Assembly (NCBI GenBank): GCA_025174535.1
Contig: JALBUN010000005.1
Span: 682,001 to 746,000, forward strand
DNA from: Cantharellus purpuraceus
Lineage: Eukaryota; Basidiomycota; Agaricomycetes; Cantharellales; Hydnaceae
Length of the DNA stretch: 64,000 bases
Direction: 5' to 3'
Shown here piece by piece: positions 17,305-62,659 of this stretch; position 1 is the first letter of the stretch, and each line of letters opens with the position of its first letter. The position numbers were made by a program, and so were the translations under genes. The notes under the pieces are model-generated. The model was not told the origin of the DNA and made no database searches. It saw nothing but the letters and a program-made list of their open reading frames with translations.

Positions 17305-18738
17305 TGTTTTGGAACCTGCAAAATTATGGTGTTAGGGCAAACTCTAAATCACCACAATTCCGTGAATGAACAGCTGAGAAGAATATCAAACCCTGCTGCA
17401 GCACAACTCCAGAAACAATTTAACGTTTGTACTTTGGTTACAATCCTTTGTATTGGTCAATGCAGACTATACGCAGAAAGGTAATACGTTTCTTAGCAGC
17501 AAGAAATGAATAAGACTTCCAGAGTCTAGAGTTCACGGACGCTTAGGGGTCCAGATATTCCAAAAAGAGGGGAATGCACTTAGAGGCTAAAGGAAGTAGG
17601 TGGATGAATCCAACCGTCCAACCAGTGGCACTCAGAAGCGGGTAACAGCAATGTGTGAAGTAGTCTAGCAACTGCTTCACACGAGTTCAAGATCCTAATG
17701 CTCTGCAAAGGCAGTACACACTAGTAACTTAAACAAGAGCACTAATGGCAGGACTATTGACAGACAATCTCACCCTGTAGATTCATAGTCACGTGAGGCA
17801 GATACTACACTCATGCCCAAAGCAGGAATATCACTACTTCGAGTGCAATCAAGTACAGTTACACAACTGTAAAAGATCCTTGAACTGGTAATCAACAGTT
17901 ACTGAGATAGAGGATGACACTGTATGTCACTCTAGTCACACTGGTGTGCAGAAGATGGGTAGAATATGATGGATATATCTCTATTTCAGAGGCAGAATGG
18001 CCTCCTTATATATTGTATTTACAGGGGCTGACTAATGGTTCTGGAATATTCTACCTATTAATAGATGGAAGCTACTGGAAGGTTGTGGAAGGTGGAAGAA
18101 AGGGGTAGAATATTCCAAGCCAATCACAGGTTCTGATCACTGGACTAACACTGACCAGGAGCTGAATAATGGTTCTGGAAAGATCTATCTAATAATAGAA
18201 GGAAACAGCTAGAATGTTATGGAAAGGGGGTAGAATATTCCAAGGCAATCACCTGATTTGATCACCCATCAGCTGATTTGATCCCTGAACTAGGCACTGA
18301 TCAGGCAAAAAGAAGGGTGTCCACCCTGTTTTCTGCACTGGTTTGGACAGCCATGGATAGCCACATGTCATGTGATGATCTGCATGGAAAATAGTGCCCT
18401 GAGAGGCTGTGGTTGTCAAGTTAGAGAATATTTATTGATCAGAGACATCTGAGCTTGAATTCAGGCCGAATGCCTGGTCCAAAGGTGGATAGCCGGCTGT
18501 GTGAAGGTTTGTGGGCGCCTATGGGTCCACAACTGTAGCACAGCAGAAATAAATGATTCTGGGCTGAGTTCTGCATGGAATATTCCTGGAAAAATATGGA
18601 AAAATAGAGAATATTTGAATAAGTCCATTCCAGGTACAAGCATCAAATATATGCTGATATTTAGGAATGGAAAAGCAAAGAATAGCACATTGGTGCTGCA
18701 TAAATGGAATTTGATAGGGAAAAGGTGGTTCCCATACA
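17305..18738 (-). mobile_element. LTR-G, left copy (1,434 bp)
   Basis: Read on the minus strand it runs from TGTATGGGAACC to GGTTCCAAAACA, so it starts TG and ends CA with a short terminal inverted repeat (GGAACC/GGTTCC). A TATA-like TATATAAGG lies on the minus strand near 18010. It is an almost identical inverted copy of 43,645-45,078, with the same length. The flanks do not match each other: GGTGG (complement CCACC) at 17300-17304 and CTCAG (complement CTGAG) at 18739-18743. Each flank instead matches one flank of the right copy, the mark of recombination between the two copies. Confidence 0.9.
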
Positions 18739-18940
18739 CTCAGGGTTGTACGGACCAAAATTGGTCCGAAGTTCGGAGATGAAGTCGGAGTAGTCCTCTG
18801 ACCATATCGGGTCATTGGAGTCATCCATGAGCGCTGGCTCGAAGTAGTCCAGTGTGGTGCCCTTGAGATAGGACATGGCGAAGGTAACCTTTGCCCGATC
18901 GGATGTGAATGTGTTGGGGCGATCGTGGAAATTCAACCGG
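18739..18940 (-). pseudogene. element A3 gag, middle segment
   Basis: The minus strand reads NFHDRPNTFTSDRAKVTF, AMSYLKGTTLDYFEPALM and SDFISELRTNFGPYNPE, a gypsy gag capsid segment. It ends at an LTR-G at 18738 and continues in sequence at 45,079 (EADAENEL). Its upstream side is broken by LTR-C (18941-20363), beyond which gag resumes at 20364. Confidence 0.88.
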
Positions 18941-20363
18941 TGACGAGCCAGGACGCATCGAGGACGTATATCGAACCACTCTGACAGTCCAACTCCGCCA
19001 GCGTCTTTTCATACCAACCTTTAAATAGCGCCACAACTCCCTCTCCACCTCAGTCTCTAATTCTAGCCATCGATCGTCACTTGTGTTTCATTGCCATTGA
19101 TCATTATCAGCCTTCAATTCACACTGATCCTTTCATCATCATTCACATGGCTTCCAATCCTATTCCCCTCTCCAACATCTCTTCTAATAATACGTCACAC
19201 TGGTCTCTGGACACAGAGGACTATCAAAAATACGCCGAGCTCCATGGACATGTTAAGCCACCTCCATGTGTCAAAATACTTCCAAAACTCTTTCAACGTC
19301 CAAGATCCCCACCATGTCTCTCTTATGCCATTGGTGATCCCATATTCTTTCACAATTCCGTTGAACCATATACATTCCTCAGCATTTCACCTCTATATCA
19401 TAACACGGATAGACGAGTCGAACGTGAGGTAGAATTTCAGTCGCCATCGCCGACCTATCCTCCCACTTCAATCCAACTCAGGTTACATTGTGTCAGGCAA
19501 AGGGACCGAATACCCTTGGAACGGGATACCATATGGAGACATATCACTAAGACAATAAGGAGTATTTGTTGTGGATGCTGACTGAAGTCCTCATGTGACT
19601 CAGGGTCAATTTACCTTCAGAGCCGTATGGAAGATGGTATTGGTGGATGTTTCTATTGTTCTTTTATATGACTCACCCCTGTTTCATCTTTTAATTCATT
19701 CATACATGACTTACTCATCCTTGTTCTATTTTTGGTTCTTTTATTACTCATCACCCCCTATTCTTACAAAGATTACCCCTATCTGTCGCTTCATTTCTCC
19801 ATGATTTCCCCATTAGTAGTTCAACTTCACATGCTTCGTCAGCTGGCTTGATCAGCATTTCTTGCATCATATTGCATCATTTGCTCTTCATATTGTGTCG
19901 TTGTGCCCTGGGGATTTGTATATAAAAGGGCACTAGTTTTCACCTTTGCAAGGAATCAACAGGTTTTCAGCCAATGCTCTAAAGTCAAAGTCCACGCTCT
20001 AAGTCTACACTCTATGCTCTACATCACAATCCATCATCTCTACACTAAGGTAAAGCACCTTGGTTCCACGATCAGATTTCCCTCCTCCACCAAGAGGTCG
20101 CTTCTCTTGAAACCAGCTTTCGCGTACCTCCCAACCGGGCTATCCATTGTCATCCAGTCACAGAGCACAATCAGCCATCGGGACCGACCTTTTGCTCCCA
20201 TCCTCATCCAACCACAGAGCACTATTCCACTTCCCTGTTATTAAGTGCTACCTCTACCCCTCGACCTGATTGATCTTTGGAGTGCTGAACAACTGCGTTA
20301 CACACTGTTTGCTAGGACCGTTGCACGCAGGCTTATAGGATCTATTCCTTAAGTGAACCGACA
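18941..20363 (+). mobile_element. LTR-C copy 1 (1,423 bp), inserted in A3 gag
   Basis: It runs from TGACGAGCCAGGACGC to GTGAACCGACA, flanked by ccgg (18937-18940) and ctgg (20364-20367), a 4-bp duplication with one C-to-T difference. A TATAAAA box is at 19921-19927. TG...CA ends, size, TATA position and duplication suggest a solo LTR of a third retroelement; no internal region of it is in the window. Its upstream half carries the open frame at 19147-19581. Confidence 0.8.
19147..19581 (+). CDS. 144-aa open frame inside LTR-C, unknown function
   Basis: The frame starts MASNPIPLSNISSNNTSHW and ends RSICCGC. It is rich in Pro, Ser, His and Ile and shows no membrane segment, signal peptide or known motif that I recognise. 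The same frame with the same length is intact in copy 2 (21455-21889) and is truncated by a CGA-to-TGA change in copy 3 (32961-33326). It lies upstream of the TATA box, in the part equivalent to U3. Whether it is translated is unknown; conservation of an open frame between diverged copies argues it was once under selection. Confidence 0.5.
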   Translation: MASNPIPLSNISSNNTSHWSLDTEDYQKYAELHGHVKPPPCVKILPKLFQRPRSPPCLSYAIGDPIFFHNSVEPYTFLSISPLYHNTDRRVEREVEFQSPSPTYPPTSIQLRLHCVRQRDRIPLERDTIWRHITKTIRSICCGC

Positions 20364-20648
20364 CTGGCATTGCACCAAGAATGGCTGGAGCTTGCGTGGA
20401 TCGGAACCATCGAATGGGTTGGGTTCTCGGACCTTGGTCCGGGACTTAGGGGCTTGTGGGTTACGGATGCTGCTGGCGAGCAGGGAGATGGCTTGCGCCA
20501 GATTTGGAGAGGGCAGGGTGTCATCTTCTTCATTGACGGCCTCTATGTGGTCCGTTGGTTCTTCGACGACCTCGGGGATGGTGTCGATGCTGGGGGTGGG
20601 TACCTTGACGATTCGTGCGCGTTCGGAATTGGTGGTGGATCGTGGCAT
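20364..20648 (-). pseudogene. element A3 gag, N-terminal segment
   Basis: Starting at the ATG at 20648 (MPRSTTNSERARIV), the minus strand encodes an acidic N-terminal region, NLAQAISLLASSI, and EPNPFDGSDPRKLQPFLVQC, matching gag of A1 (29657-28539). It is interrupted by LTR-C after FLVQCQ. The start codon lies 33 bp inside the 5' LTR edge. Confidence 0.88.
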
Positions 20649-20666
20649 TGGTAGGAGTGAGTATGG

Positions 20667-20680
20667 CAGTTTGAATATAC
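20667..20680 (-). promoter_or_regulatory. primer-binding site of A3 (self-priming type)
   Basis: Immediately inside the 5' LTR the leader reads (minus) GTATATTCAAACTG. It is not complementary to a usual tRNA 3' end (no TGG start). It is complementary to CAGTTCGAATAT of the LTR (51612-51623 in the partner LTR) apart from one CpG-type difference. That LTR sequence lies about 34 bp after a TATTTAA box, near the expected RNA start. Confidence 0.65.
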
Positions 20681-21272
20681 TGTTACACACTAGGTCCGAT
20701 TGGGGTCAGAGATTGGATTGGAGGTTGGGTCAGAGGTTGGGTCAGAGGTTGGGTTGGAGGTTGGGTTGGAGGTTGGGTTGGAGGTTGGGTTGGAGGTTGG
20801 GTCGGAGTCGGAGTACGTCGTGGGGGTCGGAACGGACTTGGCTTCAGCTTATGTGCTGCGCCCTCACTAATACCGGTGTCTGAGATTTCGGAGACGGAGT
20901 ATGACTTAGAGAGTTAGGATTGGACTTAGGAGCTAGGCGTGATTCAATATTCGAACTGGGGAATGAAGTCCCCAGTTGGGCAACTTAAATACATTTTCGA
21001 AATCTAATAATAATTACTCCGGTGATGGGTCTCCAAGGCCGACAGCCTTATGTGAGTATGTCCGAGTCCAATGGGGATGGATGTCCAGGTTCCTATGGTG
21101 ATGCTGATGGTGATGCATCAATCGGAACCAGAGACGGATGGGTGGAATCGGCGGTGACAATCGGACAGGTAATGGAGACGTAGTGGTTTCCAAATGGAGT
21201 ATAGATTTCATATGTGTGGGGATCTGAGGGGATCGGACGGGGATCTGGGCGTTAATGAATATAGTCATAACA
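20681..21272 (-). mobile_element. 5' LTR of element A3 (LTR-A, 592 bp)
   Basis: On the minus strand it runs TGTTATGACTATATTC to TAGTGTGTAACA. It keeps many CpG sites (CCGATTGTC, GCGTGATTC, TTCGAAAT) and closely matches the LTR at 51,330-51,853 rather than those of A1 or A2. A 12-bp tandem unit (GGTTGGGTTGGA-like) occurs more times here than in the partner LTR. On the right it is followed by atata (21273-21277), the complement of tatat at 51854-51858. Confidence 0.88.
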
Positions 21273-22664
21273 ATATATCAAACCACTCTGACAGTCCAAC
21301 TCCACCAGCGTCTTTTTGTATCAAACTTTTAAATAGCACCACAACTCCCTCTCCACCTCAGTCTCTAATTCTAGCCATCGATTGTCACTTGTGTTTCATC
21401 GCCATTGATAATTATCAGCCTTCTATTCACACCAATCCTTTCATCATCATTCACATGGCTTCCAATCCTATTCCCCTCTCCAACATCTCTTCTAATAATA
21501 CGTCACACTGGTCTCTGGACACAGAGGACTATCAAAAATACACCAAGCTCCACAGGCATGTTAAGCCACCTCCACATGTCAAAATACTTCCAAAACTCTT
21601 TCAATGTCCAAGATCCCCACCATGTCTCTCTTATGCCATTGGCAATCCCATATTCTTTCACAATTCCATTGAACCATATACATTCCTTGGCATTTCCCCT
21701 CTATATCGTAACACGGATAGAAGAGTTGAACATGAGGTAGAGTTTCAGTCACCATCACTGACCTATCCTCCCACTTCAATCCAACTCAGGTTACATTGTG
21801 TCAGGCAAAGGGACCGAATACCCTTGGAACAGGATACCATATGGAGACATATCACTAAGACAATAAGGAGTATTTGTTGTGGTTGCTGACTGAAGTCCTC
21901 ATGTGACTCAGGGTCAATTTACCTTCAGAGCCATAGGGAAGATGGTATTGGTGGATGTTTCTATTGTTCTTTTATATGACTCACCCCTGTTTCATCTTTT
22001 AATTCATTCATACACAAATTACTCATCCTTGTTCTATTTTTGGTTCTTTTGTTACTCATCACCCCCTATTCTTACAAAGATTACCCCTATCTGTTACTTC
22101 ATTTCTCCATGATTTCCCCATTAGTAGGTCAACTTCACACACTTCATCAGCTGGCTTGATCAGCATTTCTTGCATCATATTGCATCATTTGCTCCTCATA
22201 TTGTGTCATTGTGCCCTGGGGATTTGTATATAAAAGGGTGCTAGTTTTTGCCTTTTGGATCAATCAACAAGTTTTCAGCCAATGCTCTAAAGTCAAAGTC
22301 CATGCTCTACACTCTACATCACAATCCATTAGCTCTACACCAAGGTAAAGCACCTTGGTTCAATGATCAGATTTCCCTCCACCACTGAGAGGTCACATCT
22401 CCTGAAACCAGCTTTCACATACCTCCCAATGGGGCTCCCCATTGTCATCCAGTCACAGAGCACGATCAACCATCTGGACCGTCCTTTTTGCTCCCCATCC
22501 TCCTCCAACCACAGAGTACTATTACACTTACCCATTACTCAGTGCTACCCCTACCCCTCAACCTGATTGTTCTTTGGCATGCTGAACAACTGCGTTACAC
22601 ACCGTCTGTTTGCTAGGACTGTTGCGTGCAGGCTTATAGGATCTATTCCATAAGCGAACTGACA
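21273..22664 (+). mobile_element. LTR-C copy 2 (lacks its first bases here)
   Basis: The sequence matches LTR-C copy 1 from TATATC..ACCACTCTGACAG to GCGAACTGACA. Its missing first 30 bp are at 51854-51883 in reverse complement, next to the A3 3' LTR. It is followed by gtgt (22665-22668); the other side has atgc (51884-51887, complement gcat). Both derive from gcgt of the A1 LTR by CpG change. A TATAAAA box is at 22229-22235. Confidence 0.82.
21455..21889 (+). CDS. 144-aa open frame inside LTR-C copy 2
   Basis: Same frame and length as 19147-19581, with substitutions such as FQRPR to FQCPR and DNTD-type changes, many at CpG sites. The start ATG (21455) and the end (GCGC or CCGC with Cys) are kept. 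Function unknown. Confidence 0.5.
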   Translation: MASNPIPLSNISSNNTSHWSLDTEDYQKYTKLHRHVKPPPHVKILPKLFQCPRSPPCLSYAIGNPIFFHNSIEPYTFLGISPLYRNTDRRVEHEVEFQSPSLTYPPTSIQLRLHCVRQRDRIPLEQDTIWRHITKTIRSICCGC

Positions 22665-22987
22665 GTGTGATTCAATATTTGAACTGGGGAATCAGTTCAG
22701 CAACTTAAATATATAATTGAAATCTAATAATAATTACTCTGGTGATGGGTCTCTGAGGCCGATGGCCTTACATGAATATGTCTGAGTCTGATGGGGACGG
22801 ATGTCCATGTTCCTATGGTGATGCTGATGCATCAATCAGAACTGGAGGTGGATGAGTGAAATCTACAGCGACAATCAGACAGACTAATGGAGATGTGATG
22901 GTTTCCAAATGGAGTATAGATTTCATGTGCATGGGGATCTGAGTGGATCAGATGGGGATCTGGGTGTTAATGAATATAGTCATAACA
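22665..22987 (-). mobile_element. 3' LTR of element A1, part 1
   Basis: This is the first 323 bp (element sense) of an LTR-A, ending TCATAACA at 22987. The remaining part is 51888-52070. The split is caused by LTR-C insertion followed by A3 insertion and the inversion. Just inside lies the polypurine tract (TTAATGGAGAGATAC in element sense, about 22988-23002). Confidence 0.85.
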
Positions 22988-23126
22988 GTATCTCTCCATT
23001 AAGGCTGAGCCCTTGAGGCCTCATGTCTGTGGATTGAATAGGTGAGACGGTTGGGTGCAGTCGGAGTTATACTGGGGGTCTGGAGACATATAAAAGGAAG
23101 GGCATGTTGAGGTCTTATCCTCAATG

Positions 23127-24718
23127 ATGTTGAACCCTTTAGCAAACATGAGTGTGGCCAAGCTCGAGCAGTTGCTCCTGGCCCAATGGAAGGAGGAGGA
23201 GGTGGTGGAATGGAGACAGAAGGAGGAGGAGGAGGCAGAACGGAAACGGAAGGAGGAGGAGGAGGCAGAATGGAGATGGAAGGAGGCAAAGGTGGCAGAA
23301 AGGAAGCAGAAGGAAGAAGAAGTGAAGGTCAAGTGAGCATGCAGGGTCAAGGAGCTTGTGGCCACGATGGAGGCCATGAGGCTGAAGGATGTGGAGGAAC
23401 AGGCACATGAGCTAGAGGCCACCATGGAGGTAGAGGAGGAGGTGACCGGGGCAGGGGTGACTAGTCACCTGGGGAGTCCAAGTGTGCCAATATAGGCATG
23501 GACCCCTGAGGTCGCCATTATCTCTGTTACATGGATGGAGTTGACCCATCCGACAACTGCCCCTCTGGTAGACTCACCAGTGCATCTGCGACCACAGCCA
23601 TTATTTGTGGTGGGTGTGGCTGAAGAGGATGACATGACAGAGGTGGAGAGGGCGGAAGTGGAGGCAGATCCTGATGCAGACATGGAGCTCAATGCAAATG
23701 CGGAGCCCAAGGTGGGTGTGGCTGTCAGGACAGATACAAAGCCTGATCCGACCTCAAATGGTTACGAGGAGATGGCCTGGGTAGCCACAGTTGAAGCTTG
23801 CAAAAGGGTGGAGCTATATGCTGCTACCACCAGGAAGAACCTTGAGGTCATGGTCTTCTCATTGAAGGTGTACCTGAGCACTGATACAGAGAAGTGGGAG
23901 GTGGATCGGAGGGTCATATGGCACAAAGCGGAGGATTGCGTATTGGCGACTCATAAGAAGGAGCTGCATGTTGCTAGGTCAGCAATCCAGCTTCGCAAGC
24001 ATGAGATGGAGAAGGTGGCAGCGGAGCAGCAGGACAAGGAGGAGAGGAGCACTTGGAGGCTGTGTTGAAAAGGAGTGGACCACCCAAGGCTCTGGCTCCG
24101 ACGGAGCCATTTGGTGGGCCCAGCGTAATTTGTGACCTGTGTCATGACACAGGCATGGAGTGTATATGGCCCACTGGTCCAACTCGCCACCTTCGGTCCT
24201 GCGATCGTTGTTGGGGTCAGAAAGGAGGGTGTAGGATCGATAGCAAGTTCGATCCCCAAAGTCATAGTGTCAAGCCCCGACTAGTGGTACAAGGAGGGGC
24301 GGAGAAAGAACTGGAAGGTCATCTGACAAAAAGGCGGCGGATGGAGATGGGTGCTGTGGCAGCTGGAAGTAGTGGTGTCGGATCGGAAGGAGCAACAACC
24401 AGCGCAGGTATGGGGCATGTCTCTGTGCCCAACAGTACTGTGGGCCAGCTTATCTGGCTGGTTAACCTGCAGTTGGAGCACCTCCAGCGGACAGAGGGGT
24501 TGTTAGTGGAGTTAGTGAAGATGATGAAACAGAAGGAGGTTCTGGAGGGCCAGTGGACTGCTGAGTTGCGTCGGCTGTGGAAGTTCATGGCCCTCTTGGA
24601 TGAGGATTCAGACATGGGGGATGAGAAAGATTGGGTGTCAGATGTAGAGAGTGATGATGAGTCGGAGACAGAGCCTGAGGTAGACAAGGGGAAGGGAAAA
24701 AGGAAGCACAATGTATAA
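23127..24718 (+). pseudogene. antisense Zn2Cys6 accessory gene of A1 (inactivated)
   Basis: This gene lies opposite to gag-pol, between the chromodomain end and the 3' LTR. It begins MLNPLANMSVAKLEQLLLA, continues with a Glu/Lys/Arg coiled coil, then ELYAATTRKNLEVMVFSL, a cysteine cluster CDLCHDTGMEC ... SCDRCWGQKGGC (spacing C-x2-C-x6-C-x12-C-x2-C-x6-C), and an acidic end with KGKGKRKH. It is broken by TGA at 23334-23336, a stop near 23495 and a frameshift near 24050. The same gene is better preserved in A3 (51188-49500). The cysteine spacing fits the fungal Zn2Cys6 DNA-binding cluster. Role unknown. Confidence 0.8.
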
Positions 24719-24876
24719 CTAAAAAATGAAAATGATTTTGATTGTAATATTTTGGAGCGGAGAGAAAATGGGGTGGAGTGAGATTTTTTCAGAGGTTGGG
24801 TAGACTTGTAATTTTCTTTGTGACTTTGTAATAAAATGATGATGCAAAATAATAGAATTAGTGTCAGTAATGGAAC

Positions 24877-27800
24877 TTAAAGATTCATAAGAGGACCAGG
24901 TTTGTCTGGATAAGCAGAGTGAAAATTGGAGACGGATTTGGATGCATGATTGAGTTCGGATGTGGAGATCCATGAGGATTCTTCATCAGTGCCTTCGTAT
25001 CCAGTCCATTTGACTAGGTACTGGAGCTTGCACTTGTAACGATGATCAATCTTTGAGTCCAGGATCTCAGATATCTCATATTTGTTATCTCCTTTGATGA
25101 TGATTGGAGGAGGTGGGGATTGGGTGCAACCGGAGATCTCATTTGTAGTAGCAGGTTCAAGCATTGATATATGGAAGACCAGGTGAACTGCTCGGAAGTG
25201 GTCAGGGAGGTGGAGGGTGAAGGACCTGCTGCCTGCGTGAGCAATGACCTCATAAGGACCTAAGTATTTCTCAGAGAGTTTCTTCGATGGATGGGTGGTC
25301 TGGAAGTGTTCAGCCTTGATGAATACTTTGTCTCTGATTTGAAGGTCTGGGGCCAGGATGTGGCGTCAGTCTGCAGAGACTTGGTATTGTTTCTGGGCCT
25401 TGGAGATTGTTTCTTGGAGATGTTGGTGTAGTTGGTTGAGGTCAGTTCTGGCATCTCTCTGTTCTTTGCTAACAAAGGCTACCATCCAAACATCTCCATC
25501 CACCCTGAGAAGGAACTTGCCTCCACCAAAGCCCACCAATTGCATTTGGGGCGTTGTTGTAGGCAAACTCTGCCATCAGAAGTAGGTCAGCCCAGTTGTC
25601 TTGTTGATAGTTACAATAGACTCAGAGATATTGTTCCAGGGACTGATTCATTTGTTCCATTTGTCCATCTCCTTCAGGATGGTATCTGGAGGTGAAATGA
25701 AGCTTCATGTTGAGAGCCTTTCCTAATGTGTGGAAGAAGGAGGAGACGAACTCTGAGCCCCAATCGGATGTGACATGCGATGGGACTCCGTGTTTAGAGA
25801 ATATGTGGAGAATGAACAACTTAGCTAGTAAGGCGGAGGTGATAGTGTCATGTGTTGGAATGAATAGTCACTGTTTAGTGAACCTGTCGACAATCACGAG
25901 TATGGTGTCGTATCCGAGCGATGGGGGGAGCTTCTCTATGAAATCCATGGAGATGGAGTTCCATGGTTGCTCTGGGACTGGAAGTTGCTTAAGTGTTCTG
26001 TAGGGTTTGTGCCTTTGTGATTTTGAGTGCATACAGGTGGTACAAGAGTTACAGTACTGTTGAATATATTCTCGCATTTTTGGCCATACATAGTCCCATT
26101 GGACTAACCCCCGTGTGCGGTTTTGCCTGAAATGGCCTGAGATCAGGTGATCATGATGATACTGCAAAACTCAGAGTCAGAGACCATTGACATTGGGGAC
26201 GTATATCCAATTGTTGTGTCGGAGGTGTCCTTTGGGGTCAAGTGACCACTTTGGATTGGAAGGGTCATCCAAGTGTTTAACTGCAACAGGATCAGATTGG
26301 AGTGATGAGCAGATGTCAGAGTGGAGTTGGTCAATGTCCATAATGGTGACAGCTTGGAGGGTGGGAGTCATGAGGGTGGATGCTCATAGGGACAATGCCA
26401 GCTGCTTGTTAGTGAACACAGGATGAAAGTTGTAGGTTTACAGTGGCATAGTCGCTACTCCCCTCTTTAGGGTAGATGTCCCAGTGTCTAGTTAACACAT
26501 CAGGTTTTGCTCCGAGTCAACCAGGATGGAAATGGATAACGGGGTTGAACTGAGACAGGTATTCAGACCATCGGACTTGTCTCCAGGTGAGTAGTTTCAT
26601 TGTGGAGAAGTATTCCAAGTTCTTGTGGTCCATTATGATGTCTACCAGATCGGAGGACCTTCAAGGTAGTGTCTCCATATCTGGAATGCTTCATATATAG
26701 CAAGGAGCTCTTTGTCATGGATATCATAGTTCAGTTCAGGGGGCATAAATGTACATGAGTGAAAAGCGATTGGGTGGACTTGTCCGTCATCCAGAGAGAT
26801 GATGGACAGGATCGCAGCAAGTGCATAGTTGGAGGCATCGGTCTCTAATAGGATAGGAACATCTGGAACCCAATGAGTCAGTATCAGAGCAGAGGTAAAG
26901 GCCTTCTTCAAGGTCTCAAAGCTCTGTCTACATTTGTCAGTGAAATTCCATTGGATACCCTTCCTAGTAAGCTGGGTGAGCGGAATGGTAATATCAGAGT
27001 AGTTGTAGATGAAGCGGCGGTAGAAGTTGGTGAACCCCAGGAAGGACTGTACGTCTTTGACTTTCCATGGTTCTGGCCATTCCTGTATGGCTTTGATTTT
27101 GTCATCAGACATTGTCAGTCCTGCCAGGGAGAGGATATAGCCTAGATACTTGACTGAGTTGGAGTGGAATTCACATTTGTCAGCATGGGTGAAGAGGCCA
27201 TGTTTGCAGAGACGTCAGAGTACTTCTCGGATGTGTGTCCGATGTTCATCTTCATTATCCAAATATACCAAAATGTCATCTAAGTAAACGAGGACGGTAA
27301 CATCGAGGAGATTGGCAAAGGTATTGTTCATGAACTGCTCGAAGGTGGCTGGAGCATTGGTTAGTCCGAAGGGCATGACACACCATTCAAAAGATCCATA
27401 TTGAGTGTGGAAAGTTGTTTTCCACTCATCGCCTTCTTGGATACAGACTAGATGATAGGCATGTCAGAGATCTATTTTGGAATAGATCTTAGCCTTTCGT
27501 GGGCTCTCAAGTAGGTCCACGGTGTGGGGTATTGGGTATCAGTCTTTCTTAGTGATCTTGTTGAGTCCTTGGAAGTCGACACATAAATGGAGTGATCCAT
27601 CCTTTTTGTGGACAAATAGGACCGGAGCTCCATGGGGGGATAAGGATGGGTGAATGAAGCCCATGGCCAAGTTCTCATCTATGAATGTTCAGAGAGCCAG
27701 TAGCTCTTTTTGGGATAGCGAGTAGATAGGGCCAAGCAGAGGTGTGGAGTTGTCATCCAACTCAATCTTGAGATCGTATGGTCGGTGTTCCGCTAGGGAG

Positions 27801-28560
27801 TCAGCTTTAGACTTGCTGAACATGTCGGCAAACTCATGATACTCCTTAGGAACCATAGATAGGTCCAGTGGAGTTGATCAAGCAGAACGGGCAGCAAGGA
27901 GCATTGGATCGGAAAGGTGAACCTGGAACATTTGTGAGCCATCCAGTTTGCTTAGTCTGGCAAAGACCATAGCATCCACCATCGATATAGATGGAGGGTA
28001 GGTGGAGTATCTATCAGAGTGGAGTCAGCAGAGGTGGAAGATAATTTCACACCTAAAGTTGCTGGTGATGTCAGGGATGACACAGCCTGCACTGGAGAAT
28101 GTGATATGGCCCAATGCCCAGTCAATCAATGGATTGTAGTGGGTGAGCCAATTATGTCTGAGAACCACAGAACAGCTGGAGTCAAGTGGAGTAACATAGA
28201 ATGTAAGGTTCTGGATTTCTCTGACAGAAAAATGGATAGACAGATCTATAGCTCGTGAATAACAGCATTAGTAGTGCCATCAAATAATCAGAGTGATATC
28301 GGAGTTATGGTGTATGTATGGAGTTTATGTAAATCAGAAAAAGAGGAATCAAGGAAACAGTGAGTAGAACCGGAGTCAATTAATGCTTGGATAGTGATAT
28401 CAGGAATGGAGTTGGAGTAGACGAGGAGGGTGAGAGAGTCGGAGTGGGAAAGAGTGGATGCATTCAGGCAGACTTCATTTGTCATATGGGGAGTACCAAT
28501 GCAGCCCTCAGCCCATATGGAGGCTAGAGGACTGCTTACTATTTTTTTGGGTCCGTCGTG
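24877..28560 (-). pseudogene. A1 pol: protease, RT, RNase H, integrase, chromodomain
   Basis: The minus strand encodes in order an aspartic protease ([14 protein letters not shown] near 28,370), RT with LVYLDD near 27,280, RNase H (LLETDASNYALAAIL near 26,830), integrase with HDHLISGHFRQNRT, CNSCTTC and SMDFIEKLPP (26,160-25,940), and TSDWGSEFVSSFF (about 25,760). It ends with a chromodomain (YEISEILDSK, YLVKWTGYEG, about 25,090-24,880), which marks a chromovirus. It starts in the -1 frame relative to gag. Multiple TGA stops and frameshifts make it non-functional. Confidence 0.88.
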
Positions 28561-29657
28561 GCATTGGTGGCATGGCCCTTTGCCTTTGCTGCAGATGAGG
28601 TTGCCTTGTTGCAATCCTTGGCTTGGTGGCCAGGTTTTCTGCAGAACAGACAGAGGTTGTTGTCCATGCAGCGCTGGCATTCCTGCTGGGTAAGTTTGCC
28701 ATCCTTCCCCAGCTTGGTGGAGAGGTCCAGAGTGCTTTTGTGAGCTCCAGAGTTGTTGCTGGTGCTGGAGTTGTTCTGACCAGAACCAGAAGCAGCAGCA
28801 TTACCAGTGTTTGACTTCTGGCTGGAGTTGGTAGTGGTCTTCTTATTGGACCCCTTGTTGGACTTTGGGGTCTTGTCCAATGATTTGTCTGATTTGTTGT
28901 TAGCTGAATTTTTGCAGGAGACCTTGGATTGATGTTCCCAATAACAGGCATCGATGGATTGGGCGAGCTTGCGAAGGTTAACCAAAGTATCTGGTTTACC
29001 GACACATGATATCTCATCCTTGATGTGGGATGGGAGACCAATGTAAAATTGGTGTTGGAGTGTGGCATCGCCCCATTGGACTTTTGGAGCTAGCGGCTGG
29101 AAACTCACAATGTATTTTGCAATTTTGTGATTTTCCTTCATCATAAGTTGATTGAGTTCATTCTCAGCATCAGCCTCAGGGTTGTAAGGACTGAAATTGG
29201 TCCAGAGTTCGGAGATGAAGTCGGAGTAGTCTTCTGACCATATTGGGTCATCAGAGTCATCCATGAGTGCTGCCTCGAAGTAGTCCAGTGCAGTGCCCTT
29301 GAGATAGGACATGGCGAAGGTGACCTTCACCTGATTGGATGTGAACATGTCAGGGCAGTCATGGAAATTCAACTGGCATTGCACCAAGAATGGTTGGAGC
29401 TTGCGTGGATTGGAGCCATTGAATGGGTTGGGTTCCTGGACCTTGGTCTGGGACTTAAGAGCTTGTGGGGTACAGATGCTGCTGGCGAGCAGGGAGATGG
29501 CTTGTGCCAGATTCAGGGAGGGCGGAGTATCATCCTCTTTGTTGACAGTCTCTATGTGGCCCATTGGTTCTTCAATGACCTTGGGGATGGTGTTGATGCT
29601 GGGAGCAGGCACCTCGATGGTTTGTGCACGTTCAGAATTGGCAGTGGATCGTGGCAT
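28539..29657 (-). CDS. gag: A1 gag polyprotein, 372 aa
   Basis: The frame is uninterrupted from ATG 29657 (MPRSTANSERAQ) to TAG 28541-28539. It has a capsid-like region (EPNPFNGSNPRKLQPFLVQC, YLKGTALDYFE) and a CCHC zinc knuckle, [14 protein letters not shown] (C-x2-C-x4-H-x4-C). Capsid assembly and RNA binding are the family roles. It ends in ATTDPKK at the frameshift site. It is the only gag in the window still fully open, although the rest of A1 is dead. Confidence 0.85.
   Translation of the reverse strand: MPRSTANSERAQTIEVPAPSINTIPKVIEEPMGHIETVNKEDDTPPSLNLAQAISLLASSICTPQALKSQTKVQEPNPFNGSNPRKLQPFLVQCQLNFHDCPDMFTSNQVKVTFAMSYLKGTALDYFEAALMDDSDDPIWSEDYSDFISELWTNFSPYNPEADAENELNQLMMKENHKIAKYIVSFQPLAPKVQWGDATLQHQFYIGLPSHIKDEISCVGKPDTLVNLRKLAQSIDACYWEHQSKVSCKNSANNKSDKSLDKTPKSNKGSNKKTTTNSSQKSNTGNAAASGSGQNNSSTSNNSGAHKSTLDLSTKLGKDGKLTQQECQRCMDNNLCLFCRKPGHQAKDCNKATSSAAKAKGHATNATTDPKK
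28542..28548 (-). promoter_or_regulatory. gag-pol -1 ribosomal frameshift heptamer A AAA AAA
   Basis: Seven adenines directly precede the gag stop TAG. Slipping back one base places the ribosome in the pol frame (ATA GTA AGC). The same arrangement is at 61669-61663 (B1, stop TAA) and 63676-63682 (A4, stop TAG). Confidence 0.65.
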
Positions 29658-29689
29658 TGGTAGGAGTGAGTACGGCAGTTTGAATGTAC

Positions 29690-30212
29690 TGTTATGCACT
29701 AGGTCTGATTGGGGGTTGGAGCTTGGGTTGGAGCTTGGGTTGGAGCTTGGGTTGGAGTTGGAGTGGGGATTGGGGTGCATCGTGGGGGGTCAGAACAGAC
29801 TTGGCTTCAGCTTATGTGCTGTGCCCTCACTAATACCTGTGTCTGAGAGTACAACTTAGATAGTTTGGACTTAGGAGCTAGGCATGATTCGATATTTGAA
29901 CTGGGGAATGAAGTCCCTAGTTGGGCAACTTAAATACATAATTGAAATCTAATAATAATTACTCCAGTGATGGGTCTCCGAGGCCGATGGCCTTACATGA
30001 ATATGTCTGAGTCCAATGGGGACAGATGTCCATGTTCCTATGGTGATGCTGATGCATCAATCAGAACTGGAGGCGGATGAGTGAAATTGATGGTGACAAT
30101 CGGACAGACTAATGGAGATGTGATGGTTTCCAAATGGAGTATAGATTTCATGTGCATGGGGATCTGAGTGGATTGAATGGGGATCTGGGTGTTAATGAAT
30201 ATAGTCATAACA
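29690..30212 (-). mobile_element. 5' LTR of element A1 (523 bp)
   Basis: On the minus strand it runs TGTTATGACTATATTC to CTAGTGCATAACA. CpG sites are mostly TpG or CpA. It is followed by the duplication tcatg at 30213-30217. The leader next to it contains GTACATTCAAACTG, the self-priming site. Confidence 0.88.
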
Positions 30213-30217
30213 TCATG

Positions 30218-30843: not shown

Positions 30844-31625
30844 TGTTACATCCTGTAACACCAAGTCCGATCTCCAGATCTCCATCTCCTTCATCTCCAT
30901 TATCTGTCAACTCCACCTCCATCAACTCCACCTCCATCAACTCCACCTCCATCAACTCCACCTCCATCAACTCCACCTCCATCAACTCCACCTCCATCAA
31001 CTCCACCTCCATCAACTCCACCTCCATCAACTCCACCTCCATCAACTCCACCTCCATCAACTCCACCTCCATCAACTCCACCTCCATCAACTCCACCTCC
31101 ATCAACTCCACCTCCATCAATCCCAAACTCTATTATTGTTCTCCTTATAAGTAGTTTCTTCTTATGGGTTACAACAAACCTCCTCCTTTTATGTTGCTTA
31201 GTATAGTTTGGACTTGGGTCCAAACTCCAAACTCCTTTCTGTGTTGTACTCCATATTCATCTTATTGTCTTATTCAATTCTCCACATACTTATATGGGCT
31301 ACTCTCTGTCTATTACAGTAGTTTGTATATCAACTAAGATTTTCCCCATCAACTTCTTGGTTGCTAGCTTCTTGACAAGTACCTTCTTGATAAGTCAAAC
31401 TCTGGATTCCTGATCCAACTCTGTACTCCAAACTCCAAAATATTGGACTGATGATCCGAGGGGGTGCAACACACAAGTTGAAGCCAAGTCCACTCAATCC
31501 GACTCAATAGTATTGTTCCCACTCTGTCTCCAGTTGAACTGGAACAGTAAAGTCTCATCCCCCTCTTTGCTAGCAGCCAAACTCCAGTTATACCCTTTGA
31601 ACCATGAGTTTTCCAGCTCTTAACA
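30844..31625 (+). mobile_element. solo LTR-B with expanded minisatellite
   Basis: A 782-bp LTR-B, TGTTACATCC to CTCTTAACA, flanked by ctcca at 30839-30843 and 31626-31630. It is longer than other copies (about 600 bp) because of 14 tandem 15-bp units. Confidence 0.85.
30909..31118 (+). repeat. 15-bp minisatellite, 14 units (AACTCCACCTCCATC)
   Basis: Fourteen essentially identical units, 210 bp. They keep all frames open by chance of unit length divisible by three (NSTSI on plus, GGVDG on minus); these are not genes. Other LTR-B copies have one to three units at this place. Confidence 0.95.
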
Positions 31626-32588
31626 CTCCACATACTTATACAGGCTACTCTCTGTCTGTTACCGTAGTTCGTATATCAACTAAGATTTGTCCCAACATTC
31701 TCGTGGTTACTAGCTTCTTGACAAGTTGAACTCCAGATCCCTGATCCAACTCCATACCTCTGAACTCTGAAATAGACAATCTGAGGGGGCACAACACACA
31801 AGTTGAAGCCAAGTCCACTCAATCCAACTCAATAGTTATTGCCCCTCTCTGTCTCCAGTTGAATATTAAAGGCTGGGAAACTTGGGGTTCAATGGAATAA
31901 CTGGAGTTCAGCTGCTAGTGAAGAAGGGGAGGGGACTTTACTGTTCCAGTTCAACCGGGACAGAATGGGGCAATAACTATTGAGTCAGATTGAGTGGACT
32001 TGGCTTCAACTTGTGTGTTGCACCCCCTTGGATTTTCGGTCCAATATTTCAGAGTTTGGAGTACAGAGTTGGATCAGGGATCTAGAGTTTGACTTGTCAA
32101 GAAGGTACTTGTCAAGAAGCTAGCAACCAAGAAGTTGATGGGGCAAATTTGGTTGATATACGAACTACTGTAATAGACAGAGAGTAGCCATATAAGTATG
32201 TGGAGAATTGAATGCTGAAACTAAAACAATAAGACAATAAGACAGATATGGAGTACAACATGGAAAGGAGTTTGGAGTTTGGACCCAAGTCTGAACTATA
32301 CTAAGCAATATAAAAGAAGAAGGTTTGTTGTAACCCATAAGAAGAAACTACTTATGAGGAGAACAATAAAGGAGTTTGGGGTTGACGGAGGTGGGGTTGA
32401 CGGAGGTGGGGTTGACAGAGGTGGAGTTGATGGAGAATGGAGATGAAGGAGATGGAGATGGAGATCCAGAGATTGGACTTGGTGTTACAGGATGTAACAT
32501 TGGACTGGAACAGTAAAGTCCCCTTCCATATATCTCTAGCATCCAAACTCCGGTTACCTCCTTGAACTCCATTTCCAGCTACTTAACA

Positions 32589-38640: not shown

Positions 38641-38784
38641 CATCATTGAGGATAAGACCTCAATCACGCCCCTCCTTTTATATGTCTCCACACCCCCAGT
38701 ATAACTCCGACTGTGCCCAACCGTCTCACCTATTCAATCCACAGACATGAGGCCTCAGGGGCTTGGCCTTAAATGGAGAGATAC

Positions 38785-39415
38785 TGTTATGACTATATTC
38801 ATTAATGCCCAGATCCCCATCCAATCAGATCCCCACACATATGAAATCTATACTCCATTTGGAAACCATCACATCTCCATTTATCTGTCCGATTGCCACT
38901 GCCGAATCTTGCCCATCCATGTCCAGTTCCAATTGATGCATCACCATCACCATAGGAACCCAGACATCTGTCCCCATCAGACTTGGACATATTCATGTAA
39001 GGCCGTCAGCCTCAGAGACCCATCACCAGAGTAATTATTATTAGATTTCAAATATGTATTTAAGTTGCCCAACTGGGGACTTCATTCCCCAGTTTGAATA
39101 TTGAATCACACCTAGTTCCTAAGTCCAATCCTAATCATCTAAGTCATACTCCGTCTCCAAAATCTTGGACACTGGTATTAGTGAGGGTGCAGCGCATAAG
39201 CTGAAGCCAAGTCCGTTCTGACCCCCACAATGCACCCCGATTCCCGCTCTGACTCCAACCCAAACCCAACCCAATCTCCAACCCAATCTCCAACCCAATC
39301 TCCAACCCAATCTCCAACCCAATCTCCAACCCAATCTCCAACCCAATCTCCAACCCAATCTCCAACCCAATCTCCAACCCAATCTCCAACCCCCAATCAG
39401 ACCTAGTGTGTAACA
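38785..39415 (+). mobile_element. 3' LTR of A2 (LTR-A, 631 bp)
   Basis: TGTTATGACTATATTC to CTAGTGTGTAACA, preceded by the polypurine tract TTAAATGGAGAGATAC. A hairpin AACTGGGG (39071-39078) / CCCCAGTT (39087-39094) sits about 25 bp after TATTTAA and overlaps the self-priming sequence CAGTTTGAATAT (39090-39101). Confidence 0.9.
39267..39386 (+). repeat. 12-bp tandem repeat, 10 units (CAACCCAATCTC)
   Basis: Ten near-perfect units near the 3' end of LTR-A. Other LTR-A copies have fewer or different numbers of a related unit, so this block accounts for much of the LTR length variation. Confidence 0.93.
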
Positions 39416-40079
39416 CCCACTACAATCCATTGATTGACTGGGTATTGGGCAGTATCTTGTTCCAAACTCCAATAGAGACTAAATTCTTGGTGCCATCTGA
39501 GTTGGCAGCTTCAGCACCACTCAACTCCATAACTCCATCTCCACTTGTTGCTCCAAAAATTGCTTTCATCAATGCAGCAGCCTCTGCCCATGACTCTACC
39601 CAAGTCAACGCACAAACATTCAAGTTGTTCATCTCCTCCACAGTTCCAAAGAACTCTGAGGGCCCTCCAGTCGACATGAAGAATGTTCCAGCTGAATATC
39701 ATGAATTCAAAGACATTTTTAGCAAAACTCATGCTGACACCCTACCCACTCACAAGCTGTATGACCTGAAGATCAAAATGGAAGATGGAACATCTCCTCC
39801 TTTTGGTCCAATCTACTCTTTGTCTCAGAGCAAACTCCAGGCTCTTCAAGAATTCATTGATGAGCATTTATCATATGGTTTCATCTGGCCAACCTGTTCT
39901 CCAGGCAGTGCTCTAGTCCTTTTCATTCAGAAAAAAGATGGCTCTCTCTGACTCTGTTTCAATTTCAGAGGACTCAATAAAATCACCAAAAAGGACCATT
40001 ATTCACTTCCTCACATCTCTGATCTCCTTGACAGCCCCAGAAAGGCTCAATTCTTCACCAAAATTGATCTCTGGCATGC

Positions 40080-40384
40080 TGTGAGGGCTATGCTGAATGA
40101 CAAGGCCACAACCACAAGATACTCAATAGATGAGAGTCAATAAGAGATAATGCCAGCTGGTACAGCGGATATCCTGAGAGATCAAGCTGAGGAAACCATG
40201 CTGCACCAGGCAAAGTCTTTATACTAGATGACACAAGGAATAGGGGAACCAAGATAGGGAAACAATAGAGGAAAGATAGGAGAGAGATGGGAGAGAGATA
40301 GGAGAGTGCACCCTGACAGACTGTGCTGATAGGGGTGATAAGAAAGGTACTAAAAATAGAAACTGAATTATATGAACCCTGACA
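40080..40384 (-). mobile_element. solo LTR-J (305 bp) in B2 RT
   Basis: Reverse of the copy at 37314-37685, TGTGAGGG to CCCTGACA on the plus strand, with exact duplication catgc at 40075-40079 and 40385-40389. It has one copy of the internal 67-bp unit. Confidence 0.88.
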
Positions 40385-40514
40385 CATGCTTACCACCTTG
40401 TCCAGATTCACAAAGGTGACAAATGGAAAACTGCATTCCACACTCACTATGGCTCATTCAAGTGGTGCACTATGCCCTTTGGACTTACCAATGCTCCAGC
40501 AGCATTCCAGCATC

Positions 40515-41848
40515 TGTTTTGGAACCCGCAAAATTATGGTGTTAGGGCAAACTCTAAATCACCACAATTCCGTGAATGAACAGCTGAGAAGAATATCAAA
40601 TCCTACTGCAGCACAACTCCAGAAACAATTTAACGTTTGTACTTTGGTTACAATCCGTTGTAATGGTCAATGCAGACGATACACAGGAAGGTAATACGTT
40701 TCTTAGCAGTAGGGAATGAATAAGACTTCCAGAGTCTAGAGTTCACGGACGCTTAGGGGTCCAGATATTCCAAAAAGAGGGGAATGCACTTAGAGGCTAG
40801 AGGAAGTAGGTGGATGAATCCAACCGTCCAACCAGTGGCACTCAGAAGCGGGTAACAGCAATGTGTGAAGTAGTCTAGCAACTGCTTCACACGAGTTCAA
40901 GATCCTAATGCTCTGCAAAGGCAGTACACACTAGTAACTTAAACAAGAGCACTAATGGCAGGACTATTGACAGACAATCTCACCCTGTAGATTCGTAGTC
41001 ATGCGAGGTAGATACTACACTCACGCCCAAAGCAGGACAATCACTACTTCGAGTGCAATCGAATACAGTTACACAACTGTAAGCGACCCTTGAACTGGAC
41101 AATCAACAGTTACTGAGATATAGAGGATGACACTGTATGTCACTCTAGTCACACTGATGTGCAGATGATGGGGTAGAAAATGGTTATTTATTCAGAGGCA
41201 GAATGGGCTCCTTTTATATTGTATTTACAGGAGCTGACTAATACTACTGGAAACTTCTACCTATTAATAGATGGAAACTACTGGAAGCTAGTGGAATATG
41301 TGAGAAGGGGGTGGAAGTTTCCTAGCCAATGAGCTGCTTGGATTTGCTCTGACTCATGGCATGAGTCACCATTACTCAAATAACTCGGTCAATACTTCGT
41401 TTCCCAGGCTGATCAGCACAGCTATAGGTAGGCACAGCTTCTATTGAACTCTCCACTGAAAATGGAGTCAGGAGGTGCAGTGGTTGTGAAGATATTGAGC
41501 ATTTACTGGCAGTGGTGACCAGATTGAGTCGGAGATTGAAATGAGTCATGTGATCGAAAATGAGTCAGTTGTCCAGGTGACTCCGGCTGACTTTGGGGCT
41601 GCTGACATCTGCGAAGGTTTGTGGGTCCATGTGGGTCCCAAAACTTCGCCCAGCAGAACAATAAGTTTGTAGACTCATTTCTGCATGGAAAATTCCCGAA
41701 AAATTATGAAAAAATAGAGAATATTTGAATGGCCCTGAATCAAGAGAAAGCAGCACATATATGCTGATATTTTAAGGCCATGAAGCGAAATTGTACAGTT
41801 TCGGGACTTTAAACAAGGTCTTTTTAAGGGAGGACCAGTTCCCATACA
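40515..41848 (-). mobile_element. LTR-G variant (1,334 bp) in B2 RT
   Basis: On the minus strand it runs TGTATGGGAACTGG to GGTTCCAAAACA, with exact duplication gcatc at 40510-40514 and 41849-41853. The half near 40515-41100 is nearly identical to the two other G copies; the other half is diverged. Because both flanks match, this copy did not take part in the inversion. Confidence 0.88.
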
Positions 41849-42730
41849 GCATCTTATGAACAGCATCTTCTCTGACGTCCTGGATATATGCATCCTTGTA
41901 TACTTGGATGATATCCTGATATACTCCAACAACTCCAAAGAACACAGCAAACATGTCTGTGAAGCCCTTCTCCAACTCCAGAAGCACAAGCTGTATGCTT
42001 GAGCCAACAAATGTTCTTTCCATGAGAACACAGCCAAGTACCTCAGATATATATTGTCTCCAAACAGACTTACTATGGACTCCAGCAAAGTTCAGGTAAC
42101 ACAAGATTGGCCAGAACCTCACAAAGTCAAGGATGTGCAATCCTTCTTAGGATTTGCCAACTTTTATAGATGTTTTATATTCAACTACTCCAATCTCACA
42201 GTTCCACTAACACATCTAACTTGTAATGGAACTCTGTGGGAGTTCTCAGACTTCTGTTGGACATCCTTCAAAATGTTAAAGAGAGCTTTCATCACAGCTC
42301 CAGTCTTAGCACAATGGAACCCTGGATCTCCAATCATTGTAGAAACCACTGCCTCTGATTATGTACTTGCGGCCATTCTTTCAACTGTCTCTCCAACAGA
42401 CAATGAGGTCCATCCAATAGCTTTCCACTCCTGGACTTCACTCTGGTGGAGCTCAAATATGATGTCCATGATAAAGAATTACTCACAATCTTTGAAGCTT
42501 TCAAGTCCTTGTGACATTATCTTGAAGGATCTCCAACTCTGGTCAATGTCATCACAGACCACAAGAACCTTGAATACTTTTTGACTACCAAACTTCTCAC
42601 ACAGCAGCAAGCCTGCTGGTCTGAATTCATTTCCCAGTTTAATCTGGTAATCCATTTCTGTCCTGGCAAACTCAGTACAAAACTGGACTCATTCACTAGA
42701 TGATGGGACATCTATCCTACAGAGGGAGGG

Positions 42731-43555
42731 TGTTAAGGACTGTTACGTGGGGTTCAAAGGAGTAACTGGAGTTCAGCTGCTAGTGATAAAAGGAGAGGGG
42801 ACTTAACTGTTCCAGTTCAACTGGAGACAGAACAGAGCAATAACTATTGAGTCAGATTGAGTGGACTTGGCTTCAACTTATGTGTTGCGCCCCCTTGGAC
42901 CATTGGTCCAGTATTTCAGAATTCAGAGTATGGAGTTGGATCAAGGATCCTGAGTTCGACTTGTCAAGAAGATAGAGGCCAAACTTAGTCAATATACAAA
43001 CTGCTGTAACATACAGAGAATAGCCCATATAAGTATGTGACAAATTGAATGATAAAACTGAAGTGAGAGAACAATAAGACAGATATGGAGTACAACACGG
43101 AAAGGAATTTGGAGTTTGGACCAAAGTCCAGACTAAAACTAAGCAATATAAAAGATGATGGTTTGTTGTTAATGGGTGCCTTAGTTCACACTGTTACACA
43201 GAACTCAACCAAGTGTATTGGTTGGGCGATGTGCTGTACAGTGTGGCAGTTACTAAGTTCTGTCTACTATATGTGGACCCACACGTGTACTTGGGTCCAC
43301 TGGCTTACATAATAACTATACATATGCACCCTATGGGCACATATATCTATCAAGAAGTCAGCATTCCTTAATGGAATGCTACATACATTAATTATAACTA
43401 TCTAGCTATATACTATAGTAAGTAAGTACCTTGGGTACTTACATTTGTTGTAACCCATAAGAAGAAACTACTTATAAAGAGAACAATAGTGGAGTTCAGG
43501 GTTGATGGAAATGGAGTTAACAGAGGTGGAGATGATGGAGGTGGAGATAGAGCCT
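42731..43555 (-). mobile_element. LTR-B in B2 pol, carrying a 275-bp insertion
   Basis: Reverse-oriented LTR-B starting TGTTAAGGACTG at 42731. Its last 37 bp are at 16755-16791, beyond the inversion. A 275-bp insertion lies at 43169-43443. At 43555 it is interrupted by another LTR-B (43556-43644, duplication agcct), itself interrupted by LTR-G. Confidence 0.78.
43169..43443. mobile_element. 275-bp non-LTR insertion with 7-bp duplication
   Basis: It breaks the constant LTR-B sequence GGTTTGTTGTAACCC. tttgttg is present at 43162-43168 and 43444-43450. The insert runs TTAATGGGTGCC to GGGTACTTACA and holds a hairpin GTGGACCC..GGGTCCAC near 43275-43302. It has no coding frame. It may be a small non-autonomous DNA element; class not determined. 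Confidence 0.6.
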
Positions 43556-43644
43556 TGTTACATCCTGTAACACCAAGTCCGATCTCCAGATCTCCATCTC
43601 CTTCATCTCCATTATCTGTCAACTCCACCTCTGTCAACTCCACC
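43556..43644 (+). mobile_element. LTR-B fragment, other half at 16792-17304
   Basis: TGTTACATCCTGTAACACC to CAACTCCACC, ending at the LTR-G insertion. Flank agcct (43551-43555) matches 16787-16791 in complement; ccacc (43640-43644) matches 17300-17304 in complement. Confidence 0.85.
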
Positions 43645-45078
43645 TGTATGGGAACCACCTTTTCCCTATCAAATTCCATTTATGCAGCACCAATGTGCTA
43701 TTCTTTGCTTTTCCATTCCTAAATATCAGCATATATTTGATGCTTGTACCTGGAATGGACTTATTCAAATATTCTCTATTTTTCCATATTTTTCCAGGAA
43801 TATTCCATGCAGAACTCAGCCCAGAATCATTTATTTCTGCTGTGCTACAGTTGTGGACCCATAGGCGCCCACAAACCTTCACACAGCCGGCTATCCACCT
43901 TTGGACCAGGCATTCGGCCTGAATTCAAGCTCAGATGTCTCTGATCAATAAATATTCTCTAACTTGACAACCACAGCCTCTCAGGGCACTATTTTCCATG
44001 CAGATCATCACATGACATGTGGCTATCCATGGCTGTCCAAACCAGTGCAGAAAACAGGGTGGACACCCTTCTTTTTGCCTGATCAGTGCCTAGTTCAGGG
44101 ATCAAATCAGCTGATGGGTGATCAAATCAGGTGATTGCCTTGGAATATTCTACCCCCTTTCCATAACATTCTAGCTGTTTCCTTCTATTATTAGATAGAA
44201 CTTTCCAGAACCATTATTCAGCTCCTGGTCAGTGTTAGTCCAGTGATCAGAACCTGTGATTGGCTTGGAATATTCTACCCCTTTCTTCCACCTTCCACAA
44301 CCTTCCAGTAGCTTCCATCTATTAATAGGTAGAATATTCCAGAACCATTAGTCAGCCCCTGTAAATACAATATATAAGGAGGCCATTCTGCCTCTGAAAT
44401 AGAGATATATCCATCATATTCTACCCATCTTCTGCACACCAGTGTGACTAGAGTGACATACAGTGTCATCTTCTATCTCAGTAACTGTTGATTACCAGTT
44501 CAAGGATCTTTTACAGTTGTGTAACTGTACTTGATTGCACTCGAAGTAGTGATATTCCTGCTTTGGGCATGAGTGTAGTATCTGCCTCACGTGACTATGA
44601 ATCTACAGGGTGAGATTGTCTGTCAATAGTCCTGCCATTAGTGCTCTTGTTTAAGTTACTAGTGTGTACTGCCTTTGCAGAGCATTAGGATCTTGAACTC
44701 GTGTGAAGCAGTTGCTAGACTACTTCACACATTGCTGTTACCCGCTTCTGAGTGCCACTGGTTGGACGGTTGGATTCATCCACCTACTTCCTTTAGCCTC
44801 TAAGTGCATTCCCCTCTTTTTGGAATATCTGGACCCCTAAGCGTCCGTGAACTCTAGACTCTGGAAGTCTTATTCATTTCTTGCTGCTAAGAAACGTATT
44901 ACCTTTCTGCGTATAGTCTGCATTGACCAATACAAAGGATTGTAACCAAAGTACAAACGTTAAATTGTTTCTGGAGTTGTGCTGCAGCAGGGTTTGATAT
45001 TCTTCTCAGCTGTTCATTCACGGAATTGTGGTGATTTAGAGTTTGCCCTAACACCATAATTTTGCGGGTTCCAAAACA
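43645..45078 (+). mobile_element. LTR-G, right copy (1,434 bp)
   Basis: TGTATGGGAACC to GGTTCCAAAACA with TATATAAGG at 44371. It is nearly identical to the left copy in inverted orientation. Flanks: ccacc before and ccgag after, which do not match each other but match the left copy's flanks. Confidence 0.9.
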
Positions 45079-62640: not shown

Positions 62641-62659
62641 GTTAGGGATTGGGACGGAT

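Follow-up and report, generated by a model that had tools for sequence, protein, structure and literature searches.

Crossed target-site duplications at two inverted solo long terminal repeats point to the inversion of a 24.9-kb segment in Cantharellus purpuraceus

We analyzed a 64-kb stretch of the genome of the basidiomycete Cantharellus purpuraceus (C5:682001-746000, hereafter the window), which belongs to an assembly of 40.15 Mb in 50 contigs and is occupied by long terminal repeat (LTR) elements nested within one another. Two copies of one of these repeats, named G, lie in the window in opposite orientations, and our subject is this pair together with the 24.9-kb segment between the copies, which appears to have been turned around. 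A scan of the window with Rfam returned nothing at the gathering threshold.

On the left side, the front part of another LTR, LTR-B, occupies positions 16792-17304 on the plus strand. It resembles the B copies at 31884-32398, 55709-56223 and 62659-63113, is preceded by the target-site duplication (TSD) AGGCT (16787-16791), and is cut by the left G copy (17305-18738), whose element sense is on the minus strand. The first feature of the intervening segment is a 5′ piece of the gag gene of element A3 (18739-18940, minus strand), which aligns to the gag of element A1 up to the G insertion point. It is followed by copy 1 of LTR C, which is inserted in A3 (18941-20363, plus strand, with the flanks CCGG and CTGG), by the A3 5′ LTR (20739-21272, minus strand), by most of copy 2 of LTR C (C2; 21273-22664, plus strand), and by A1 itself (22665-30212, minus strand), which consists of the inner part of its 3′ LTR (22665-22987), its body, and a 5′ LTR ending at 30212. 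At the other end of the segment, a severed LTR-B tail (43556-43644, minus strand) abuts the right G copy (43645-45078, plus strand). Beyond it lie the rest of A3 (45079-51853, plus strand), comprising the gag remainder, protease, reverse transcriptase/RNase H and the 3′ LTR (about 51323-51853); the remaining 30 bp of C2 (51854-51883, minus strand), which start with the A3 TSD; and the outer part of the A1 3′ LTR (51884-52070, plus strand). By its domains A3 is probably of the Ty3 type, with matches to zf-CCHC, RVP_2, RVT_1 and RT_RNaseH, while Retrotrans_gag was matched in the A1 copy. The two A3 LTRs match each other at a Kimura two-parameter (K2P) distance of 0.044 and show a strong excess of transitions (20 against 1 transversion in 502 sites), which may fit the decay of methylated CpG or a mutation process resembling repeat-induced point mutation.

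The two G copies measure 1,434 bp each, start with TG and end with CA, and are separated by 24,906 bp. Only three mismatches distinguish them (LTR positions 13, 608 and 879), giving an identity of 99.8% across the 1,434 bp, with a longest difference-free run of 600 alignment columns. G is the LTR of an LTR retrotransposon, as indicated by its TG...CA ends, the 5-bp TSDs of the family, the stretches common to the surroundings of several copies, and the existence of paired direct copies. G copies were sampled by similarity to the window copy, for which 40 of 1,576 candidates were scored, from the first 100 of 780 listed ends, and from one list of copies sharing an LTR haplotype; the 780 are the genome matches of the terminal 33-mer of G at up to 3 mismatches, some of which are not full LTRs. 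The own 5-bp TSD matched at 5/5 bases in 43 of 81 single-stretch copies and at 4/5 in two. Some copies are attached to internal sequence: a purine-rich stretch is common to the upstream side of four copies and a leader to the downstream side of three, and these sit at the inner edges of two direct pairs that enclose about 8.8 kb and carry matching outer 5-mers, namely C10 1515385-1527048 (L133 and L120; GATTT) and C3 1000035-1011563 (L097 and L098; TCAGG). The C10 pair differs by 3 substitutions in 1,431 bases, and therefore the family moved recently. No G internal region lies beside the window copies, all four flanks being LTR-B and A3 gag, and both copies are solo LTRs. The divergence between G copies has a median of 2.8%, or 1.3% when each copy is compared with its nearest one.

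Several other G loci have unusual surroundings. Two copies (L023, C49:32673-34105; L034, C17:709747-711176) have the same flanks on both sides and neither has its own TSD; it seems that an LTR that had already been rearranged was copied by segmental duplication. At C1:2436347-2438320 and C15:248127-250222, G copies are enclosed by, or border on, fragments of G or G-like copies in inverted orientation. In the window itself, a G relative (92% over 824 bp) at 40515-41846 has inserted into a pol gene of the Ty3 type and keeps an intact TSD of its own, GCATC; it plays no part in the inversion considered here.

The flanks of the window copies match crosswise rather than on each copy's own two sides. 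Written in the orientation of the left copy, the left G stands between GGTGG and CTCAG and the right G between CTCGG and GGTGG; the own 5-mers agree at only 1/5 and 2/5 bases, whereas the crosswise comparisons agree at 5/5 and 4/5. GGTGG (17300-17304) is the reverse complement of 43640-43644 and is assigned to the G inserted in LTR-B as half of its TSD; CTCAG (18739-18743), with its partner at 45079-45083 and one mismatch, is likewise assigned to the G inserted in the A3 gag. The first-pass annotation of this DNA had described two inverted 1,434-bp copies with non-matching own flanks and two good duplications when left flanks were paired with right ones, and we found both descriptions to be correct. 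A missing own TSD is common among G copies (3/5 bases or fewer in 36 of 81 single-stretch copies), and therefore it is the crosswise match that counts. In a chance control on the 3,570 pairs that 85 G copies form, in which pairs whose two members each keep a good own TSD were set aside, crosswise agreement of at least 9/10 occurred twice, in the window pair and in one other inverted pair, located on C6. When no pairs were excluded (4,656 pairs of 97 copies), one more pair reached at least 9/10, L038/L094, and these two share the intact own TSD ACTCC. Crosswise agreement of 8/10 carries little meaning, since the nine such pairs in the set of 3,570 exceed the expectation from equal base frequencies. 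Moreover, GGTGG repeats every 15 bp in the relevant part of LTR-B, so its 5/5 match is less telling and the continuity of LTR-B weighs more. A tandem array of 15-bp units is found at 30847-31176, within an LTR-B-like stretch.

For both junctions, unoccupied paralogous sites could be compared. In the G-free gag of A1, CTGAG marks the end of the alignment with 18739-18800 (reverse-complemented), and the alignment with 45079-45140 takes up at the same GAG. The 40 best-scoring of 496 gag candidates in the genome (the A1 copy of the window included) are unbroken across the G insertion point and display the normal order. The LTR-B join, running to 17304 and then into the reverse complement of 43556-43644, is consecutive in three copies, of which B2 has an extra 15-bp unit there and B3 and B4 lack one; the fourth copy compared, B5, is too repetitive at the join for exact placement. 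The outer flank of each window G thus continues into the inner flank of the other, exactly in gag and to within one 15-bp unit in LTR-B.

Further insertions are split between the segment and its outside. The divided TSDs of LTR-B (AGGCT, 16787-16791 and 43551-43555), A3 (TATAT, 21273-21277 and 51854-51858) and A1 (CATGA, 30213-30217 on the minus strand and 52071-52075) each agree at 5/5 bases, in accordance with the pairs agcct, atata and catga listed in the first-pass annotation. The A1 3′ LTR is in two parts where A1's own 5′ LTR is continuous; the parts meet at position 328 of the latter and have K2P distances to it of 0.070 (inner) and 0.068 (outer). The pieces of C2 meet, sharing the TSD, when aligned to the LTR C copy C3, as the split pair gtgt/gcat had implied, but the 4-bp TSD itself is weak: ACAC and ATGC are each one CpG transition away from ACGC, and the unoccupied target reads CACGCC in the A3 3′ LTR and CACACC in another sister LTR. 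Turning 18739-43644 around had also been said to repair several genes and elements at once. This was correct for the A3 gag, the A1 3′ LTR and C2, but it was not confirmed for a hAT gene, whose right piece matched Dimer_Tnp_hAT at an E value of 0.026 (below the cut-off) and whose left piece matched no family; the single other genome match of the left piece, on C11, ceases to align 31 bp short of the end of the piece. Neither the separate searches nor the C11 alignment confirmed hAT domains flanking the junction at the A1 target, and the hAT repair is therefore not supported. Just beyond the right end of the nest, a reading frame at 53655-54125 has a protein kinase match under the Pfam cut-off. 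The nested insertions give the order A1 (LTR K2P about 0.07), C2, A3 (0.044), G and then the inversion.

The second crossed pair lies at C6 98281-99685 (plus strand) and 102525-103929 (minus strand), with 2.8 kb between the copies, and the whole case covers 5.6 kb. Its flanks are AATGG and GTGGC for one copy and GTGGC and AATGG for the other, crossed at 5/5 and 5/5 bases. The copies differ by 0.14%, while the next nearest aligned copy is 2.35% off. When the outer-left flank is reverse-complemented, it joins the inner-right flank in one gag sequence (A3 gag at about 45271-45381, and also that of A1), with the TSD as the overlap; the remaining two flanks had no match in that gag, nor elsewhere among the sampled loci and the window. 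At another locus (L043, C3:1771700-1776500), an inverted G pair, near-identical and containing nested G-like pieces, has crosswise 5-mers that agree at 5/5 (GCTTC) and 2/5, and this is possibly a third, more complex exchange.

Near identity is frequent among inverted neighbors. We counted G pieces of at least 400 bp and at least 93.5% similarity to the window copy from the sampled loci and the window (130 pieces, with the older overlapping loci L001-L008 left out), and considered pairs with at least 400 aligned bases. Divergence below 0.3% was found in 14 of 37 inverted neighbor pairs less than 25 kb apart, 1 of 15 direct ones and 1 of 8,245 distant pairs. The single distant pair is the segmental duplicate L023/L034 with the same flanks on both sides. 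The single direct pair consists of the two LTRs of one element on C10; the C3 pair 1000035/1010133 (1.8%) is likewise from one element, and without both the direct count is 0/13. With the same-element pair kept, the difference between 14/37 and 1/15 has a Fisher's p of 0.040. The contrast between inverted and direct neighbors is weak, and the sampling favored the former: 19 of the 64 copies on the haplotype list were added as partners in inverted pairs, and a single one as a direct neighbor, five C5 ends and one C6 end were left out, and direct neighbors are hence few. The first 100 ends include some that do not belong to full LTRs, such as a C1 group of four tandem matches spaced by 97 bp, and L049, L054, L057, L067 and L121 each take part in two inverted pairs. 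Homogenized direct pairs may be unseen because a crossover between direct neighbors deletes the DNA between them, and such survivorship is the simplest reason for the difference. Within the one LTR haplotype, neighbors at 1.5-26.5 kb among all 64 copies formed 15 inverted and 8 direct pairs against 2.5 in total under uniform placement, an excess that is only suggestive, as this expectation ignores the clustering of repeats.

Two inverted pairs hint at how the homogenization may have come about. On C11, the copies at 110683 (minus strand) and 114618 (plus strand) are identical over 1,276 alignment columns and then show 10 differences in 84, as a conversion tract with an edge inside the LTR would; a comparable run was found in 0 of 16 distant pairs with similar difference counts. 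On C5, the copies at 402621 (minus strand) and 411137 (plus strand) have 1 difference and both own TSDs intact, which seems to be conversion without crossover. Together with the window pair, three outcomes seem to be present: partial conversion, and conversion that either was or was not accompanied by a crossover.

Because of the crossed TSDs, the unoccupied sites for both junctions and the nested splits of the A1 3′ LTR, C2, LTR-B and A3, we conclude that 18739-43644 lay in the opposite orientation in an ancestor, and we consider it highly probable that the 24.9 kb were turned around by a homologous crossover between the inverted LTRs, accompanied by conversion. In the proposed mechanism, two G elements would have inserted independently and in opposite orientations, one in LTR-B and the other in the gag of the nested A3, and only solo LTRs of both remain. 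A homologous crossover between these LTRs would have turned the intervening segment around and swapped the inner flanks of the copies, leaving crossed TSDs, and gene conversion, whether during this exchange or during others, would have made the LTRs nearly identical. The crossed TSDs, the broken and pairing nested elements, the near identity and the second crossed pair are all present in the assembly. We infer from them that the crossover took place in the living organism and was not made by the assembler, that the near identity stems from conversion and not from co-insertion, and that the crossover point fell within G, where 3 differences are too few to place it. The inversion had earlier been called proven, a word that suits the ancestral order of the pieces but is too strong for the claim that the organism, and not the assembler, made the turn.

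Several observations weigh against this interpretation. The un-inverted order is not seen intact in the assembly analyzed. Choosing the best-scoring gag matches favors unbroken copies. Additionally, crossed TSDs occur in only 2 pairs among the G copies examined, 23 of the 37 inverted neighbor pairs are not homogenized, and near-identical 1.4-kb inverted repeats are places where assemblers err.

Compatible with a crossover is the possibility that both orientations exist, either polymorphic between strains, nuclei or homologues, or flipping. The same exchange can reverse, and near identity would favor repeated exchange; however, the right flank (52076-53600) has one full-length match in the assembly and thus no second haplotype, and we regard this possibility as tentative. 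It is rather unlikely that the near identity came from the co-insertion of sister complementary DNAs or from local duplication, with the inversion as a separate later crossover. Some inverted partners are indeed LTRs attached to element internal sequence (one copy each in L041 and L026; L120 and L123), but near-identical partners lie in different flanks with different 5-mers, and one pair has the abrupt tract edge described above. Somewhat less likely still is a misassembly, in which the organism is un-inverted and the assembler crossed between the near-identical G copies. Short reads could not phase 1,434-bp copies that are 99.8% identical with so long a difference-free run. Nevertheless, there is no N in the 64-kb window or in the 267,859 letters of the sampled, partly overlapping loci, which would fit a long-read assembly. 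Furthermore, each window G has one base that is absent from the other 80 aligned copies, which suggests that the two were resolved as separate, and the C6 pair provides a second, much smaller example at a length within ordinary long reads. Finally, a chance origin, with TSDs lost for unrelated reasons and accidental crosswise matches, would draw on the frequent lack of TSDs in G and the recurrence of GGTGG in LTR-B, but it is negligible in view of the rarity of 9/10 matches in the filtered pairs, both of them inverted neighbors, and of the agreement of the paralogous sites and the further split insertions.

The nest preserves an ordered history from A1 to the inversion, whose two junctions can be tested by ordinary polymerase chain reaction. 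Going further, we tentatively speculate that neighboring inverted LTRs form a standing recombination system, in which they convert far more than direct ones and occasionally cross over; repeat-rich blocks might then contain numerous segments of about 3-25 kb that can be inverted and may lie in different orientations in different strains or nuclei. If the genome-wide pattern holds up against reads, a single genome could be used to count how often ectopic exchange at inverted repeats ends with a crossover and how often without one, the TSDs serving to record the outcome.

Inversions that arise between oppositely oriented LTRs and leave their TSDs crossed are already known as a class of event. 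In yeasts and other fungi, segments between LTRs or Ty elements of opposite orientation are known to be inverted by ectopic homologous recombination, and the segment in the window resembles these cases in having inverted LTRs at its ends, exchanged flanks and crossed target duplications. In contrast to them, the turn in the window cuts a nest of elements and is attested by several independent insertions. In plants and primates, LTR-mediated rearrangements have been inferred where solo LTRs or endogenous retroviruses carry mismatched TSDs. The diagnostic is the same in the window, where the own TSDs differ and those of the partners match, but here the partners are 25 kb apart and paralogous empty sites are available. 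Dispersed Ty or LTR repeats are also known to undergo intrachromosomal gene conversion, and G is similar in its homogenized neighbors and in the one tract edge inside the LTR; in the G sample, however, it is inverted (14/37) and not direct (0/13) neighbors that are homogenized. The neat record of the window, together with this hint of frequent exchange between inverted neighbors, sets the case above the routine.

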